NCBI GenBank assembly: GCA_001510295.1
Contig: LFEZ01000023.1
Span: 1 to 48,452 of the forward strand
Length of the DNA stretch: 48,452 bases
Direction of reading: 5' to 3'
Origin: Thaumarchaeota archaeon casp-thauma4
GTDB lineage: Archaea; Thermoproteota; Nitrososphaeria; Nitrososphaerales; Nitrosopumilaceae
The notes under the pieces were generated by a model. It made no database searches, was not told the origin of the DNA, and saw only the letters and a program-made list of their open reading frames with translations. Shown here one piece after another: positions 28,916 to 38,175 of the stretch. The translations under genes were made by a program, and so were the position numbers. The first letter of the stretch is position 1; every line of letters starts with the position of its first letter.

Positions 28916-29464
28916 ATGAGCGAAAGTTCACCAATTAAAGATGCATTATATGCAAAAATTAACGATATTGGACAAGAAGAAATACATCAATTATTGTTAA
29001 ACGGTAAATTTTCAGAATTATTTGAAAAAATCTATGAACCAGTAATTAATGGTATAGAAGATATTGATGAATACAAAAAACATGGAACCTTGGCAGAAAG
29101 CCTAACACATTATCTGTTTACAGAGATGCTAATTCCTAGTCAACGAAAAGTTGTTTTTGAAAATATAGAACTAGACATGATAATTCCAAGTATGGCAGAA
29201 TTACAAAAAGATAGTCATAATTCAATAGTGATAGTATTTGTTAAGACATCAAATATTGAACATGTAAAACAAAGAATTGAAAATATAAAGAAAGTTCAGA
29301 AAGAGGATAGAAACATATGGACCATTTCAAAAGAATATATTGAAATCCCACAATCTAGATACAAAACAGAAAAAGAATCTTTTGGTAATTTTTTAAAAGA
29401 TACTCAAAATTTTATTAAAACAAAAAAGAGGAATAAGCTAAATATTTTCAAGACCGATTTTTGA
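28916..29464 (+). CDS. Hypothetical protein, possible PD-(D/E)xK-like core (182 aa)
   Basis: No family is firmly recognised. The 182-residue protein is soluble, with charged helices at both ends. The central part LAESLTHYLFTEMLIP...VFENIELDMIIPSMAELQ...SIVIVFVKTS has acidic residues before and at the start of a strand and a Lys ending a second strand (E...ELD...FVK). This order resembles restriction-like nuclease cores but is only suggestive. It starts 5 bases after the HMG-CoA synthase stop, so it is co-transcribed. The 3' end overlaps bioD by 27 bases on the opposite strand. Confidence 0.65.
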   Translation: MSESSPIKDALYAKINDIGQEEIHQLLLNGKFSELFEKIYEPVINGIEDIDEYKKHGTLAESLTHYLFTEMLIPSQRKVVFENIELDMIIPSMAELQKDSHNSIVIVFVKTSNIEHVKQRIENIKKVQKEDRNIWTISKEYIEIPQSRYKTEKESFGNFLKDTQNFIKTKKRNKLNIFKTDF

Positions 29465-30133
29465 AATATCAACAAAATTTGGAAAGTTTTCAACGTAGGA
29501 TTCAATTGTAAATGAAGGATTGTGTGGAATTGCACCAAAAACCCTATGTCCAGTCAGACCAAAGATTTGATGTTTCAAATTAGTTAATTCATACCCGTCA
29601 GAGACGTTTTGATTTACCAAAAATCCTTTTAAATTCAAGTTTTTTTGTCGTGCATGCTCGTATGTTAACATAAAATGATTCACAGTGCCGATTTTAGAAC
29701 CAATTACAATTAATGAACTCAATTTTAAATCAGAAATTAAATCAGAAACAAAATAATTTTTAGATATTGGAGTCATAATTCCACCAATTCCTTCCACAAT
29801 TACAACATCATGTATGGACGCAAGTTGTTTGTATGATTCAATTACCTTGGAGATGTCAATTTCAAGATTAAGTTGTTTAGATGCATCATATGGAGAAGTA
29901 GGAATTTCAAAATAATAGGGATTTATAAGATCAGTAGGATCGGTTACTCCGGAATATTTCATTAAAATTTCAACATCGTGAGATATAGAATCAGGAGTTG
30001 CCTTGTAGCCAGATGCGAAAGGCTTCATCACTCCAACATCTACATCAATATCACGAAGATGTTTAACTATTGCAGCACTGACACATGTTTTTCCAACATC
30101 AGTATCAGTTCCAGTAACAAAAAAAGAATTCAT
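29438..30133 (-). CDS. bioD: Dethiobiotin synthase
   Basis: BioD closes the ureido ring of 7,8-diaminopelargonate to dethiobiotin with ATP and CO2. The 231-residue protein has the P-loop FVTGTDTDVGKT at residues 5-16, the substrate loop MKPFASGYK, and VVIVEGIGGIMTPI, the classical motifs. Its ATG overlaps the bioA stop codon by one base (TAATG), so it is translationally coupled to bioA. Confidence 0.96.
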   Translation of the reverse strand: MNSFFVTGTDTDVGKTCVSAAIVKHLRDIDVDVGVMKPFASGYKATPDSISHDVEILMKYSGVTDPTDLINPYYFEIPTSPYDASKQLNLEIDISKVIESYKQLASIHDVVIVEGIGGIMTPISKNYFVSDLISDLKLSSLIVIGSKIGTVNHFMLTYEHARQKNLNLKGFLVNQNVSDGYELTNLKHQIFGLTGHRVFGAIPHNPSFTIESYVENFPNFVDISKIGLENI

Positions 30134-31467
30134 TATAATTTCCTAGATATTGATTTGATTGTGGATATGGTCCCATCGATTAAAAAATTAATATCTTTTT
30201 GAGATATTGCTAATGGAGGAACAAGCATTATGATATTTCCAAGTGTTCTGAAATAGATTTGGTGTTTTCTACCTTCATCAAATACCAATTTGTTAATTGA
30301 TATTTTAGACGAAATAGATTTGTGAGAGTTTTTGTTTTGAAGAAGTTCAATACCCATCACCATACCCTTATGACGAATTTCTCCCACCAAATCTAAGTTA
30401 GAAATATCATTAATTCTATTTTCAAAAACCTTAGATGTTTTTTGAATTTTTTCAATTAGATGATATTTTTCATACAATTCAATATTTTTTAGAGATAATG
30501 CAGCAGAGATAGGATTTCCAGTATATGTGTGACCGTGAAAAAGATGTTTAAATTCAGAGAATTTACCGAGAAATGAATCATTAATTTTCTTCGTGGTTAA
30601 AGTGGCAGCAAATGTTTGATATCCGGCAGTAAGCATTTTTCCAAACGAAACAATATCGGGAATAGAGTTTTGAGATTGATATTCAACCATAGATCCTAAT
30701 CTTCCAAAACCAGTTGCAATTTCATCCAATACAAGTAAAACGCCATTTTTTTTGCATATTCGTGATATCTTTTTTTGAAAAGATTTAGGGTAGATTATTA
30801 CTCCACCTGCCATTTGTGCACCACTTTCCATGATAAATGCGGCAATTGAATTATTTTTTTCAAGTTTATCTTCAATTTTTGCTAAACAATATTCTTCATA
30901 TTCCTTAGATGATTCTTTTTTGTGAGTTCCGGCAGATATGGTTCGTGGAACAGGAAATTGTATAGTTGAAAATAACTTTGAACGGAATTTTGAGAAAAAT
31001 TCAGGAACGTATCCTACAGACATTGCACCAAAGGTATCACCATGATATCCATTTTTCAATGTAGCGATGTTTATTTTTTTATTTTCGCCCTCATTATGCC
31101 AATATTGTAAAGCAATTTTTATTGCAATTTCCATTGCAGTTGAACCATTATCTGAAAAGAAAACAGAGTACATTTTCGGATTTAGTTTTAATAATTTTTT
31201 AGATAATTTTTCGGCAGACGGGTGTGTTAAATTAAACAAAGGAGTATGCTGAATTATTTTTGTTTGTTTGATCATTTCAGATACTAGTTCAGGTTTCGAG
31301 TGACCCCAAACATTACACCACATGCTTGCAACACCATCAAGCATTTTTCCACCCTTGGAATCATACAACCACATACCTTTAGCAGATGTTATTTTAGGAA
31401 AAGCGTTCCATTCAGACATTTGAGTATTAGGGTGCCAAACAGAACTATGAGATTTCATACAAATCAT
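30133..31467 (-). CDS. bioA: Adenosylmethionine-8-amino-7-oxononanoate aminotransferase
   Basis: BioA is a class III PLP aminotransferase that makes 7,8-diaminopelargonate with S-adenosylmethionine as amino donor. The 444-residue protein begins with the substrate-site VWHPNTQ, and has FSDNGSTAMEIAIK, GYHGDTFGAMSVG, LVLDEIATGFGRLG (Asp249), and PLP Lys277 in SFGKMLTAGYQ. The start is ATG 31467, or Met4 at 31458. The TTAATTA stretch lies 23-30 bases before 31458, which favours the second for a leaderless message. It forms an operon with bioD. Confidence 0.96.
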   Translation of the reverse strand: MICMKSHSSVWHPNTQMSEWNAFPKITSAKGMWLYDSKGGKMLDGVASMWCNVWGHSKPELVSEMIKQTKIIQHTPLFNLTHPSAEKLSKKLLKLNPKMYSVFFSDNGSTAMEIAIKIALQYWHNEGENKKINIATLKNGYHGDTFGAMSVGYVPEFFSKFRSKLFSTIQFPVPRTISAGTHKKESSKEYEEYCLAKIEDKLEKNNSIAAFIMESGAQMAGGVIIYPKSFQKKISRICKKNGVLLVLDEIATGFGRLGSMVEYQSQNSIPDIVSFGKMLTAGYQTFAATLTTKKINDSFLGKFSEFKHLFHGHTYTGNPISAALSLKNIELYEKYHLIEKIQKTSKVFENRINDISNLDLVGEIRHKGMVMGIELLQNKNSHKSISSKISINKLVFDEGRKHQIYFRTLGNIIMLVPPLAISQKDINFLIDGTISTIKSISRKL

Positions 31468-31485
31468 ATCTCTTTTGGCTAATTA

Positions 31486-31497
31486 ATGGTTAACCAT
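31486..31497. promoter_or_regulatory. 12-bp perfect palindrome, candidate biotin operator 1
   Basis: ATGGTTAACCAT is a perfect palindrome next to the AT-rich TATA region (TAATTA, 31480-31486 area) of the bioA promoter. A second GTTAAC is centred 22 bp away (two helical turns) near the bioB promoter. The placement on the TFB/TBP sites of both genes suggests that one repressor controls both. Identity of the regulator (BirA-like or other) is unknown. Confidence 0.5.
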
Positions 31498-31510
31498 AGA
31501 TTTAACACGA

Positions 31511-31516
31511 GTTAAC
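31511..31516. promoter_or_regulatory. GTTAAC palindrome, candidate biotin operator 2
   Basis: A second GTTAAC, centred 22 bp from the first palindrome, lies immediately upstream of the TTATTTA (about 31519-31525) that is 22-28 bases before the preferred bioB ATG 31547. An intervening TTTAAC (31501-31506) has the same half-site. See the companion entry at 31486. Confidence 0.4.
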
Positions 31517-31546
31517 GCTTATTTACTGAATTTTTTAATTTTGAAT

Positions 31547-32527
31547 ATGCAAAATCAAACGGAGTTAATCCTGGAGTGTAAAAATAGAGTCCTCGCCAAA
31601 CAGGGATTAACCGAAGAATTAACAAACAAATTATTTAACGTGGAAGACGAAGTTTTGAGTCAATTATCAGATGCAGCCAACGAGATTACTAGGAAATTTC
31701 AAGGAACAAAAATAGATATTGAGCAATTAGCAAATATCAAGAAAAATTATTGCAGTGAAGATTGTTCATTTTGTAGCCAATCTGCATTTTTTGATACAGG
31801 GATTGACAATTATCAATTAATGCCTGCAGAAGAAGTGGTCAGAAAAGCAATGGATGCAAAGAAAGCAGGTGCTCACTCATATTGTTTAGTTGCAGCATGG
31901 AGAGAGCCATCAGACAAAGATTTTGAAAAAGTTTGCAACATAATTAAAGAAGTTAATGAGAAAGTAGGAATTTCAATTGAATGTAGTTTAGGATTTTTAA
32001 CAATTCAACAAGCAACAAAATTAAAAGAATTAGGAGTAATTAGATATAATCATAATTTGGAAACATCTGAATCTAAATTTCCAGAGATTTGTACAACTCA
32101 CACGTATCAAGATAGAATTGACACATTGCACACCGCAAGAAAAGCTGGATTGGAGCTTTGTACAGGAGGAATAATAGGAATGGGTGAAACAAGAAAACAA
32201 AGAGAAGAGTTAGTACAAGCAATTTCTAAACTTAATCCAGAAGAGGTTACAGTTAATTTATTGGTAGCAATCCCAGGTACACCTTTAGAATTACAAACTC
32301 CGTTAAGTTTAGAAGAAATACTAAGAGTATTTGCAGTTTTGAGATTTTTACTTCCAAAAAGTATTATAAAAATTTCAGGAGGCAGAGAAGTTAATCTAAA
32401 CGATGATGGAAAAGAATTACTTTTGAGCGGTGCCAACGGAATTATTAGCGCAGGCTATTTAACATTAGACGGAAACTCTATGCAAAAAGATGTTAAAATG
32501 ATAAAAGAGATTAATCTTGAAGCCTAA
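31547..32527 (+). CDS. bioB: Biotin synthase
   Basis: BioB is a radical SAM enzyme that inserts sulphur into dethiobiotin. The radical-SAM cluster motif is CxxxCxxC at Cys69, Cys73 and Cys76 (YCSEDCSFCSQS). SYCLVAAWREP and YNHNLETSESKF, GIIGMGETRKQR and ISGGREVNL follow, as in other BioB proteins. A TTG at 31541 lies two codons before ATG 31547, which is preferred for its TATA distance. The 3' end overlaps bioF by 11 bases. Confidence 0.96.
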   Translation: MQNQTELILECKNRVLAKQGLTEELTNKLFNVEDEVLSQLSDAANEITRKFQGTKIDIEQLANIKKNYCSEDCSFCSQSAFFDTGIDNYQLMPAEEVVRKAMDAKKAGAHSYCLVAAWREPSDKDFEKVCNIIKEVNEKVGISIECSLGFLTIQQATKLKELGVIRYNHNLETSESKFPEICTTHTYQDRIDTLHTARKAGLELCTGGIIGMGETRKQREELVQAISKLNPEEVTVNLLVAIPGTPLELQTPLSLEEILRVFAVLRFLLPKSIIKISGGREVNLNDDGKELLLSGANGIISAGYLTLDGNSMQKDVKMIKEINLEA

Positions 32528-33647
32528 ATTTGGCACACTTGAAAAAAAATTAAGTGCAATTAAAAAAAATAATTTACTAAGAAATCTTCAAGATAGTCAA
32601 GTTGAAAAACAGTTCATAAAGCAAAATGGAAAAAAATTACTAAATTTTTCATCAAATGACTATCTTGGAATAAATCCAGGCGATATAAAACACTCTCAAT
32701 TTCAATCAAGTTCAAGACTTGTCTCTGGAAATGATACTAGTTTTTCAATACTTGAAAAAAAGTTAGCCGCTCATAAATCCAAAGAAAAATCAATAATTTT
32801 CCCTACAGGGTATATGGCAAACCTTGGAATAATTTCTTCAATTGCAAACAAACAAGATACAATATTTAGTGATGAGTTGAACCATGCAAGTATTGTTGAA
32901 GCATGTAAGTTATCTGGATCTAAAATTAAAATTTTCAAACATAACGATATGGGAGATTTGGAACAAAAGATAAAGAAAACTAAAGGAAAAAAAATCTTGA
33001 TTACAGAAGGAATATTCAGTATGGATGGCGACTGGTCAAGATTAAATGAGATATCTCAGATAGCCGAAAAACATGAAACTATTACAATTGTAGATGATGC
33101 ACATGGAGATTTTGTATTAGGAAAAGATGGAAAAGGTACTGCAAATTTTTTCAATGTAGAAAAGAAAATTGATCTATACACCAGTAGCCTCAGTAAAGGA
33201 TTAGGTAGTTTTGGAGGATATGTTTGTGGGAAAAAGAGTTTAATTGATTTATGTATAAACACATCAAAAACTTTCATATACACATCGGCATTACCTGCAT
33301 CAATTAATCAATATTCACTTGAAAGATTTAATTCAAACAGAGAAGTATATAGAAAAAAATTATGGGATAAAATTAATTTATTCCATAGAAGATTAGAAGA
33401 AATTCAACTTCATACCACATCTACAAGTCAAATAATTCCAATAATCATAGGTAAAGAAAAAAATGCAATGGAGTTTTCAAAATTTTTAAGAGATAATGGT
33501 ATTTTTGCACAAGCAATAAGATACCCAACCGTAAAGAAAGATCAGGCACGAATTAGAATATCAGTTACAGGCTGGTTATCAGATAAAGAAATCGAATATT
33601 CAATACAAATTTTAGAAAAAGCTAAAAGGAAATTTAAACTAAAATGA
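32517..33647 (+). CDS. bioF: 8-amino-7-oxononanoate synthase
   Basis: BioF is a PLP enzyme that condenses pimeloyl-thioester with alanine. The 376-residue protein has FSSNDYLGI, SRLVSGNDTSFSILEKKLA, VDDAHGDFVLG, and PLP Lys227 in YTSSLSKGLGSFGGY. The start is TTG 32517, which gives MKPKFGTLEKKLS and overlaps bioB by 11 bases. The operon supplies the three last steps of biotin synthesis together with bioA and bioD. Genes for making pimeloyl-thioester (bioC/bioH, bioW) are not in the window. Confidence 0.95.
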   Translation: MKPKFGTLEKKLSAIKKNNLLRNLQDSQVEKQFIKQNGKKLLNFSSNDYLGINPGDIKHSQFQSSSRLVSGNDTSFSILEKKLAAHKSKEKSIIFPTGYMANLGIISSIANKQDTIFSDELNHASIVEACKLSGSKIKIFKHNDMGDLEQKIKKTKGKKILITEGIFSMDGDWSRLNEISQIAEKHETITIVDDAHGDFVLGKDGKGTANFFNVEKKIDLYTSSLSKGLGSFGGYVCGKKSLIDLCINTSKTFIYTSALPASINQYSLERFNSNREVYRKKLWDKINLFHRRLEEIQLHTTSTSQIIPIIIGKEKNAMEFSKFLRDNGIFAQAIRYPTVKKDQARIRISVTGWLSDKEIEYSIQILEKAKRKFKLK

Positions 33648-37144: not shown

Positions 37145-37152
37145 TTTATAAT
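37145..37152 (+). promoter_or_regulatory. TATA box of the ribosomal protein operon
   Basis: TTTATAAT lies 28-35 bases before the uL3 ATG (37180). Transcription should begin a few bases before the ATG, giving a very short leader. No other promoter of this strength was seen until after uL6. Confidence 0.55.
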
Positions 37153-37179
37153 GGGGTTAACGACTTTTTTCATTTATCT

Positions 37180-38175
37180 ATGGGACATAGAAAACGCAGT
37201 CAACCAAGAAGAGGAAGTGGAGCATATTCTCCTAGAATACGTGCAAAAAGTATGGAAGCACGAGTTCGAGCATGGCCTAAAGTAGACAGTGATGAACCAA
37301 GACTACTAGCACATGCAGGATACAAAGCAGGATGTGTGCAATTAGTTAGCATAGATGATAGAGAACATACACCAAGTCACGGAAAACAACTTGTAACAAT
37401 AGGAACAGTAATCGCAACTCCACCAATTACAATAGTAGGAATTAGAGGATATTCAGTAGATACCAATCATACAAGAAATGCAGAATTTGATTCATTTGCA
37501 AAAGATTTACCAAAAAATGTACAAAATAATTTAAAAATTAAAACAGAAGGAACACCAATTGATGAAGCAGAAAAACATTTGAGAAAAATTAAAGAAATTT
37601 TTGCCATAGTCATAACAACCCCAGGAGATGCCAATTTAGAAATGAAGAAACCTTACATCTTTGAAGTTAAAGTAGAAGGAGGAGACATACCAAAACAATT
37701 TGCGTTTGCTAAAGATCTTTTAGGAAAAACTGTCAAAGTCGACCAAGTGTTTGAAAGTGGAACCTATGTAGATACTGCAGCAATTACAAAAGGAAAAGGA
37801 TGGCAAGGTGTAATTTACAGATGGGGCGTAAAAAGAAAACAACACAAATCGCGAAAAACAGTTAGAGAAGTTGGATCATTAGGTCCAATATCTCCAAGTA
37901 GTGTTATGTACACAGTACCAAGAGCAGGACAAACAGGATTTCATCAAAGAATAGAGTATGATAAAAGAATAATGATAATGAGCAATACAGAAAAAGAAGA
38001 ATTTAAAATAAATCCTGACGGAGGATTCAAGCACTTTGGAAAGGTTACAGGAGATTTCATAATCGTGAAAGGTTCAGTGCCAGGAACGTATAGAAGATTG
38101 ATCAAACTTAGAAAACAAATTAGAAACAAACCAAAGAAAGTTGTAAAACCAAATGTGTTGGAGGTTGTGATTTAA
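37180..38175 (+). CDS. rpl3: Ribosomal protein uL3
   Basis: uL3 lines the peptidyl-transferase region of the large subunit. The 331-residue archaeal-length protein has the basic start GHRKRSQPRRGSGAYSPRIRAKSMEARVR, and the conserved KGKGWQGVIYRWG (which reaches toward the peptidyl transferase centre), followed by PSSVMYTVPRAGQTGFHQR. It is the first gene of the operon, with its own TATA box. Its stop overlaps the uL4 start by one base (TAATG). Confidence 0.98.
   Translation: MGHRKRSQPRRGSGAYSPRIRAKSMEARVRAWPKVDSDEPRLLAHAGYKAGCVQLVSIDDREHTPSHGKQLVTIGTVIATPPITIVGIRGYSVDTNHTRNAEFDSFAKDLPKNVQNNLKIKTEGTPIDEAEKHLRKIKEIFAIVITTPGDANLEMKKPYIFEVKVEGGDIPKQFAFAKDLLGKTVKVDQVFESGTYVDTAAITKGKGWQGVIYRWGVKRKQHKSRKTVREVGSLGPISPSSVMYTVPRAGQTGFHQRIEYDKRIMIMSNTEKEEFKINPDGGFKHFGKVTGDFIIVKGSVPGTYRRLIKLRKQIRNKPKKVVKPNVLEVVI

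Follow-up and report, generated by a model that had tools for sequence, protein, structure and literature searches.

Biotin genes and the repeat between them

The window analysed here, a stretch of 48,452 nt, comes from a marine, Nitrosopelagicus-like archaeon: its bioB gene shares 88–95% identity with bioB of named Nitrosopelagicus and marine group I records. Four biotin genes lie in the window as two divergent pairs. On the minus strand are bioA (30133–31467; TIGR00508, over cut-off) and bioD (29438–30133; TIGR00347, over cut-off), the latter sharing one base with the end of bioA. On the plus strand are bioB (31547–32527, with its ATG at 31547; TIGR00433, over cut-off) and a gene for a bioF-type enzyme (32517–33647), whose best match is TIGR00858 with 337.9 bits (under the cut-off of 426.45).

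The gap between the annotated bioA and bioB genes (31468–31546) is 79 bp long and contains an inverted repeat, TGGTTAACC-N14-AGTTAACGC (31487–31518; 32 bp, dyad centre at 31502.5), which we predict to be an operator of the type bound by BirA, which acts both as biotin protein ligase and as repressor. The GTTAAC cores of its two half-sites, as read from the sequence, are at 31489–31494 (left, within ATGGTTAACCAT at 31486–31497) and 31511–31516 (right), with 16 bp separating them and their centres 22 bp apart; a TTTAAC (31501–31506) lies between the cores. The initial annotation had described the 79-base gap, the palindrome ATGGTTAACCAT and a second GTTAAC centred 22 bp away, and all three are found in the sequence. 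A BioR (GntR-type) box, TTATMTATAA, was not seen in 31468–31546 when this sequence was read by eye.

Each side of the repeat has a TATA-like element, a putative promoter element: TTAATTA on the minus strand for bioA (31480–31486, centre 31483, 25 bp from the ATG at 31458) and TTATTTA on the plus strand for bioB (31519–31525, centre 31522, 25 bp from the ATG at 31547). The start of bioA is placed here at its second ATG, 31458, which is probably the true one since the first (31467) is lost in a relative (L110). Both TATA-like elements are centred 19.5 bp from the dyad of the repeat, and the start codons at 31458 (bioA) and 31547 (bioB) each lie 44.5 bp from it.

Conservation of the repeat and gene order in relatives

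Conservation was measured in 13 Nitrosopelagicus sequences (the window, 11 named loci and genome G096). Columns of the half-sites are invariant in 15 out of 16 cases, but those of the spacer in only one out of 14; as a baseline, 88 of 326 third codon positions of bioB are invariant (12 of the 13 sequences). The columns of the TATA-like elements are also conserved: six of seven are invariant on the bioA side and seven of seven on the bioB side. Two smaller elements named in the initial annotation are present in the window but were rejected as conserved units: the lone 12-bp palindrome ATGGTTAACCAT has different outer bases in three loci (L110, L112 and L114), and the third TTTAAC is missing from all 11 named loci aligned. 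As the halves are kept whereas the outer bases of the palindrome and the middle TTTAAC vary, the unit is one inverted repeat, TGGTTAACC-N14-AGTTAACGC. Two deeper members of Nitrosopelagicus (G172 and G184) carry a similar repeat in the corresponding position, and in them, too, bioA and bioB diverge. The initial annotation had let its proposal of a shared operator for divergent bio genes depend on whether the motif is conserved before the bio genes of related thaumarchaea; it is conserved there, and a shared operator is well supported.

In the usual layout of the family, bioA is co-directional with bioB and upstream of it, the box lies between them, and bioD faces away. The divergent arrangement of bioA and bioB turned up nowhere but in the Nitrosopelagicus group, the g56 genomes G158 and G191, and the named loci L116, L118 and L121. 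The loci with bioA inverted relative to most relatives, and thus with bioA and bioB divergent over the predicted operator, are the window (29438–33647), L106–L115, L144, L116, L118, L121, L336, L337, L396 and L397; the inversion makes all four bio genes adjoin one operator.

This usual order would suit a BirA that acts on the bioB promoter only, or as an activator, with the bioA side incidental to the inversion, as in most relatives the box precedes bioB and bioA lies upstream in the same orientation, and the loci scanned showed no box scoring at least 14 (see below) between bioD and bioA. Within the genus, however, the TATA-like elements and start codons are symmetric about the dyad, and the TATA-like element on the bioA side is conserved as well. 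We therefore consider a one-sided action unlikely; given the symmetry, BirA should shut both promoters.

A biotin protein ligase with a DNA-binding domain

We found one biotin protein ligase in the genome (661 kb, 61% complete), a protein of 335 aa (G000:C16:10150–11154). It has three domains over cut-off, HTH_11 (14–65, E 4e-14), BPL_LplA_LipB (94–218) and BPL_C (288–332), it matches TIGR00121 over cut-off, and it aligns with Staphylococcus aureus BirA over residues 14–317; its match to the repressor domain TIGR00122 has 54.9 bits, under the cut-off of 70. By this domain make-up the ligase is assigned to the type with an N-terminal winged helix-turn-helix (HTH) domain (group II). A search for a BirA with a DNA-binding domain had been suggested in the initial annotation, and the sole ligase found carries one. 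Directly before birA is a gene for a 179-aa protein (L001:683–1222), whose stop overlaps the birA start and which has a weak match, below cut-off, to TrmB-type winged-helix proteins.

Co-occurrence of the box with the HTH domain

The regions upstream of bioB were scored for 73 genomes in a sample of the order, for 27 of 30 further genomes of the family, and for G172 and G184, against the pattern TTGTWAACC-N14/15-GGTTWACAA; bioB matches weaker than about E 1e-70 were treated as paralogues and dropped. Ligases were classed by an HMM of the N-terminal domain. Left out were G125 (no upstream DNA taken), G188, G183 and G189 (no bioB region scored), G019, G095 and G113 (in which no ligase was found, although two of them have a box), and G172 and G184 (no ligase or uL3 data). 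With a box defined as a score of at least 14 of 18, a threshold picked after seeing the scores, a box is found before bioB in 63 of 70 genomes with an intact HTH, but in only one of 26 in which the HTH is absent or degenerate (96 genomes, Fisher 1e-15; the call 'degenerate' is based on short partial matches in G164 and G168, and G154 has no match). At a threshold of 15 the counts are 55 of 70 and 0 of 26, and by genus majority they are 19 of 22 and 0 of 8. The tree of the catalytic domain has several separate groups with neither HTH nor box. In phylogeny-corrected pairs there are only three usable independent contrasts between HTH and box, on average 1.8 of them in the same direction and never any in the opposite one (p 0.5, not significant). 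Strong as the association is, few evolutionary events stand behind it.

The single HTH-negative genome with a box (G049) scores 14, probably by chance. Seven HTH-positive genomes have no box before bioB: four of genus g4, G159, G160 and G074. The BirA of G074 (L223) has a diverged recognition helix, and its HTH is possibly on the way to loss. In genus g4 (L012, L014, L015 and L017) another conserved upstream stretch replaces the bioB box, while the DNA-binding domain of BirA and a box before the gene for ribosomal protein uL3 are kept.

The variable base of the box varies with the protein. If the residue after SR in the recognition helix is V or T, the right half is GTTAAC in 38 out of 39 genomes; if it is A, S or E, the right half is GTTAAC in none of 24, all of which have GTTTAC, GTTCAC or similar. 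At that position of the helix S. aureus BirA has SRTAV. On the tree, residue and base show only two to three changes, giving three contrasts, two of them in the same direction (p 0.5). Across these sequences the base of the predicted operator tracks the residue of the recognition helix, and we propose the rule V/T for GTTAAC and A/S/E for GTAAAC-type sites.

Related sites upstream of the uL3 gene

A candidate second target is found in the window: TATAATGGGGTTAAC (37147–37161, plus strand), which has a TATA-like element followed by one half-site, lies in the predicted promoter of a gene (37180–38175, plus strand) that we take to encode uL3 from sequence resemblance, with further ribosomal-type genes after it. 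Inverted repeats resembling the BirA box, or half-sites linked to a TATA-like element, are found at the uL3 promoters of relatives (L227:2319–2350, L228:10843–10874, L229:11545–11576 and L230:2110–2141). A full GTTAAC-N16-GTTAAC box precedes uL3 in genera g3, g4, g7, g57 and g59, and in g3, g7 and g59 the uL3 promoter is the second place, besides bioB, that matches the strict pattern GTTAACY-N14/15-RGTTAAC. GGGGTTWAC behind a TATA-like element is found at uL3 in g1 (the genus of the window), g2, g5, g6, g53, g56, g61 and three of four g50 genomes. Of the seven HTH-positive genomes without a box before bioB, six have a site at uL3 (a box in the four g4 genomes and in G159, a half-site in G160); the seventh is G074, with the diverged recognition helix.

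Of 61 genomes, 23 have a match to the TATA-linked half-site TATAATGGGGTTWAC, and none has more than one; because of this we rejected the half-site as a general promoter element. Most of these matches are at uL3 by position; the match in G152 is on a contig other than that of the uL3 gene found, and G181 was left out. G159 also has a GTTAAC-rich stretch (L401:1273–1305) in which GTTAAC occurs three times and which is not near a recognised biotin or uL3 gene; no biotin gene was recognised at the C61 site of this genome.

Under a criterion set after seeing the sequences (a score of at least 15, or GGGGTTWAC), a uL3 site was found in 45 HTH-positive genomes and not in 21, and in none of 24 HTH-negative genomes (90 genomes), an association that lineage effects could mimic. 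The variable base at uL3 follows the recognition residue of BirA in 41 of 41 and 6 of 6 cases, with one change on the tree. The same criteria gave no uL3 site in 36 upstream regions outside Nitrosopumilaceae (families f2, f3 and f8). From these sequence patterns it is conceivable, though we hold it to be somewhat less probable than its opposite, that in Nitrosopumilaceae BirA has come to act at the promoter of the uL3 operon as well as at that of bioB, so that biotin (carboxylase) status would set ribosome production. With only one half-site at uL3 in Nitrosopelagicus, control there, if it exists, would be weaker or of another sort. If the uL3 sites are targets of BirA, a vitamin-sensing enzyme would control ribosome synthesis; this is not known from any other organism, and BirA control of uL3 would have no known precedent.

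The uL3 sites also bear on whether another regulator, as yet undescribed (such as the small winged-helix protein whose gene precedes birA, or some other HTH protein), binds the GTTAAC pair, with BirA acting as a ligase only. The TrmB-like gene adjoining birA could encode such a protein (its match is weak), and the same motif precedes uL3, a gene without a known role in biotin metabolism. But the box tracks the HTH of BirA, the variable base goes with the recognition residue of BirA at both bioB and uL3, and the layout equals the BirA signal published for delta-proteobacteria, TTGTAAACC-[N14/15]-GGTTTACAA with one or two sites per genome (PMC545781, in an excerpt citing Rodionov et al. 2002). 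A separate regulator is thus very unlikely. The initial annotation had proposed a candidate operator for a new regulator; with this published layout, and with an HTH in the one ligase found in the genome, that part of it is not supported: the switch is almost certainly of a known kind, and no new regulator is needed.

Frequency of the repeat in whole genomes

GTTAAC is found 13 times in the window (10.2 expected). In the genome, GTTAAC-N13..18-GTTAAC matches once, exactly at the bio gap, and its reversed control pattern four times; the strict pattern also matches once, at the bio gap, and its control not at all. Three other Nitrosopelagicus genomes have one strict match each, at bioB (controls 1, 0 and 0), and 22 of 61 genomes of the family have one or two apiece, with controls mostly zero. 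Scored against TTGTWAACC-N14/15-GGTTWACAA (W allowed at the variable base), the window site reaches 14 of 18, a score that is reached by 3 of 60 shuffles of the upstream region; closer matches, up to 18 of 18, are found before bioB in relatives. The GTTAAC count alone is weak evidence, and it is conservation that raises the repeat above chance; likewise the case for BirA at the window site is built on relatives, its own match to the consensus being modest.

That the repeats are chance or promoter sequence of an AT-rich genome, without any regulator, would fit the commonness of GTTAAC and a loose pair no rarer than its control, but is extremely improbable given half-sites that are invariant around a free spacer in 13 sequences, a repeat before bioB in most HTH-positive genomes of the order, and a strict pattern with one or two matches in each genome that has it, against controls mostly at zero. 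Taken together, we put the probability that the repeat at 31487–31518 is the bio operator of the BirA encoded elsewhere in the genome at about 0.9.

Proposed working of the switch

When biotin is ample and the carboxylase acceptors are already biotinylated, BirA would retain biotinyl-5'-AMP and dimerize, as we infer from the bacterial BirAs that have been studied. Bacillus subtilis BirA is reported to dimerize, to require biotin and ATP, and to fail when only one half-site is present (PMC4016012); for S. aureus BirA, binding by the monomer is described (PMC6391492). The winged HTH of each subunit would sit on one of the GTTAAC half-sites, which lie on the same face of the DNA at a distance of two turns. 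Bound to the repeat, the dimer would abut both TATA-like elements and hinder TBP and TFB, so that bioA-bioD and bioB-bioF would be shut together. When biotin is scarce, the adenylate would be spent on acceptors, BirA would leave the DNA and both operons would be on.

A regulator of biotin synthesis in ammonia-oxidizing archaea can now be given as a named, testable candidate protein. Biotin feeds the carboxylase of the carbon-fixation cycle of these archaea, an established pathway, and the proposed switch would thus touch a central process of the ocean.

Comparison with known systems

In Escherichia coli one operator lies between the divergent bioA and bioB operons, and the window resembles it in having four bio genes beside one putative operator between divergent bioA and bioB. 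Both E. coli and B. subtilis share with the window the general plan of BirA and bioO: a group II ligase bearing an N-terminal HTH, and an inverted repeat with a spacer of the N14/15 type before biotin genes. The window differs from them in the outer positions of its putative site, which are G/C in place of TT/AA, and in having predicted archaeal TATA-type promoters rather than sigma-factor promoters. Rodionov, Mironov and Gelfand reportedly treated BirA regulons by comparative genomics in 2002, with Archaea named in the title; that paper is outside the open-licence literature covered here, in which we found neither a thaumarchaeal BirA operator nor a link between BirA and uL3.

In an excerpt on B. 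subtilis, the half-site primer contains GGTTAACAATT, with the same GTTAAC core as in the window (PMC4016012). Nitrososphaera gargensis has the same biosynthetic genes, bioABD, which are functional there, and BirA is named as a regulator in general terms in the excerpted text of that study (PMC6138646); a predicted thaumarchaeal operator is given here but not in that text, and in many genomes of family f8 the ligase has no HTH and there is no box. With the predicted BirA regulons the window shares the TTGTAAACC-[N14/15]-GGTTTACAA layout (PMC545781, as excerpted); compared with what is excerpted from that work, the present analysis covers the ammonia-oxidizing order and adds the candidate site at uL3.
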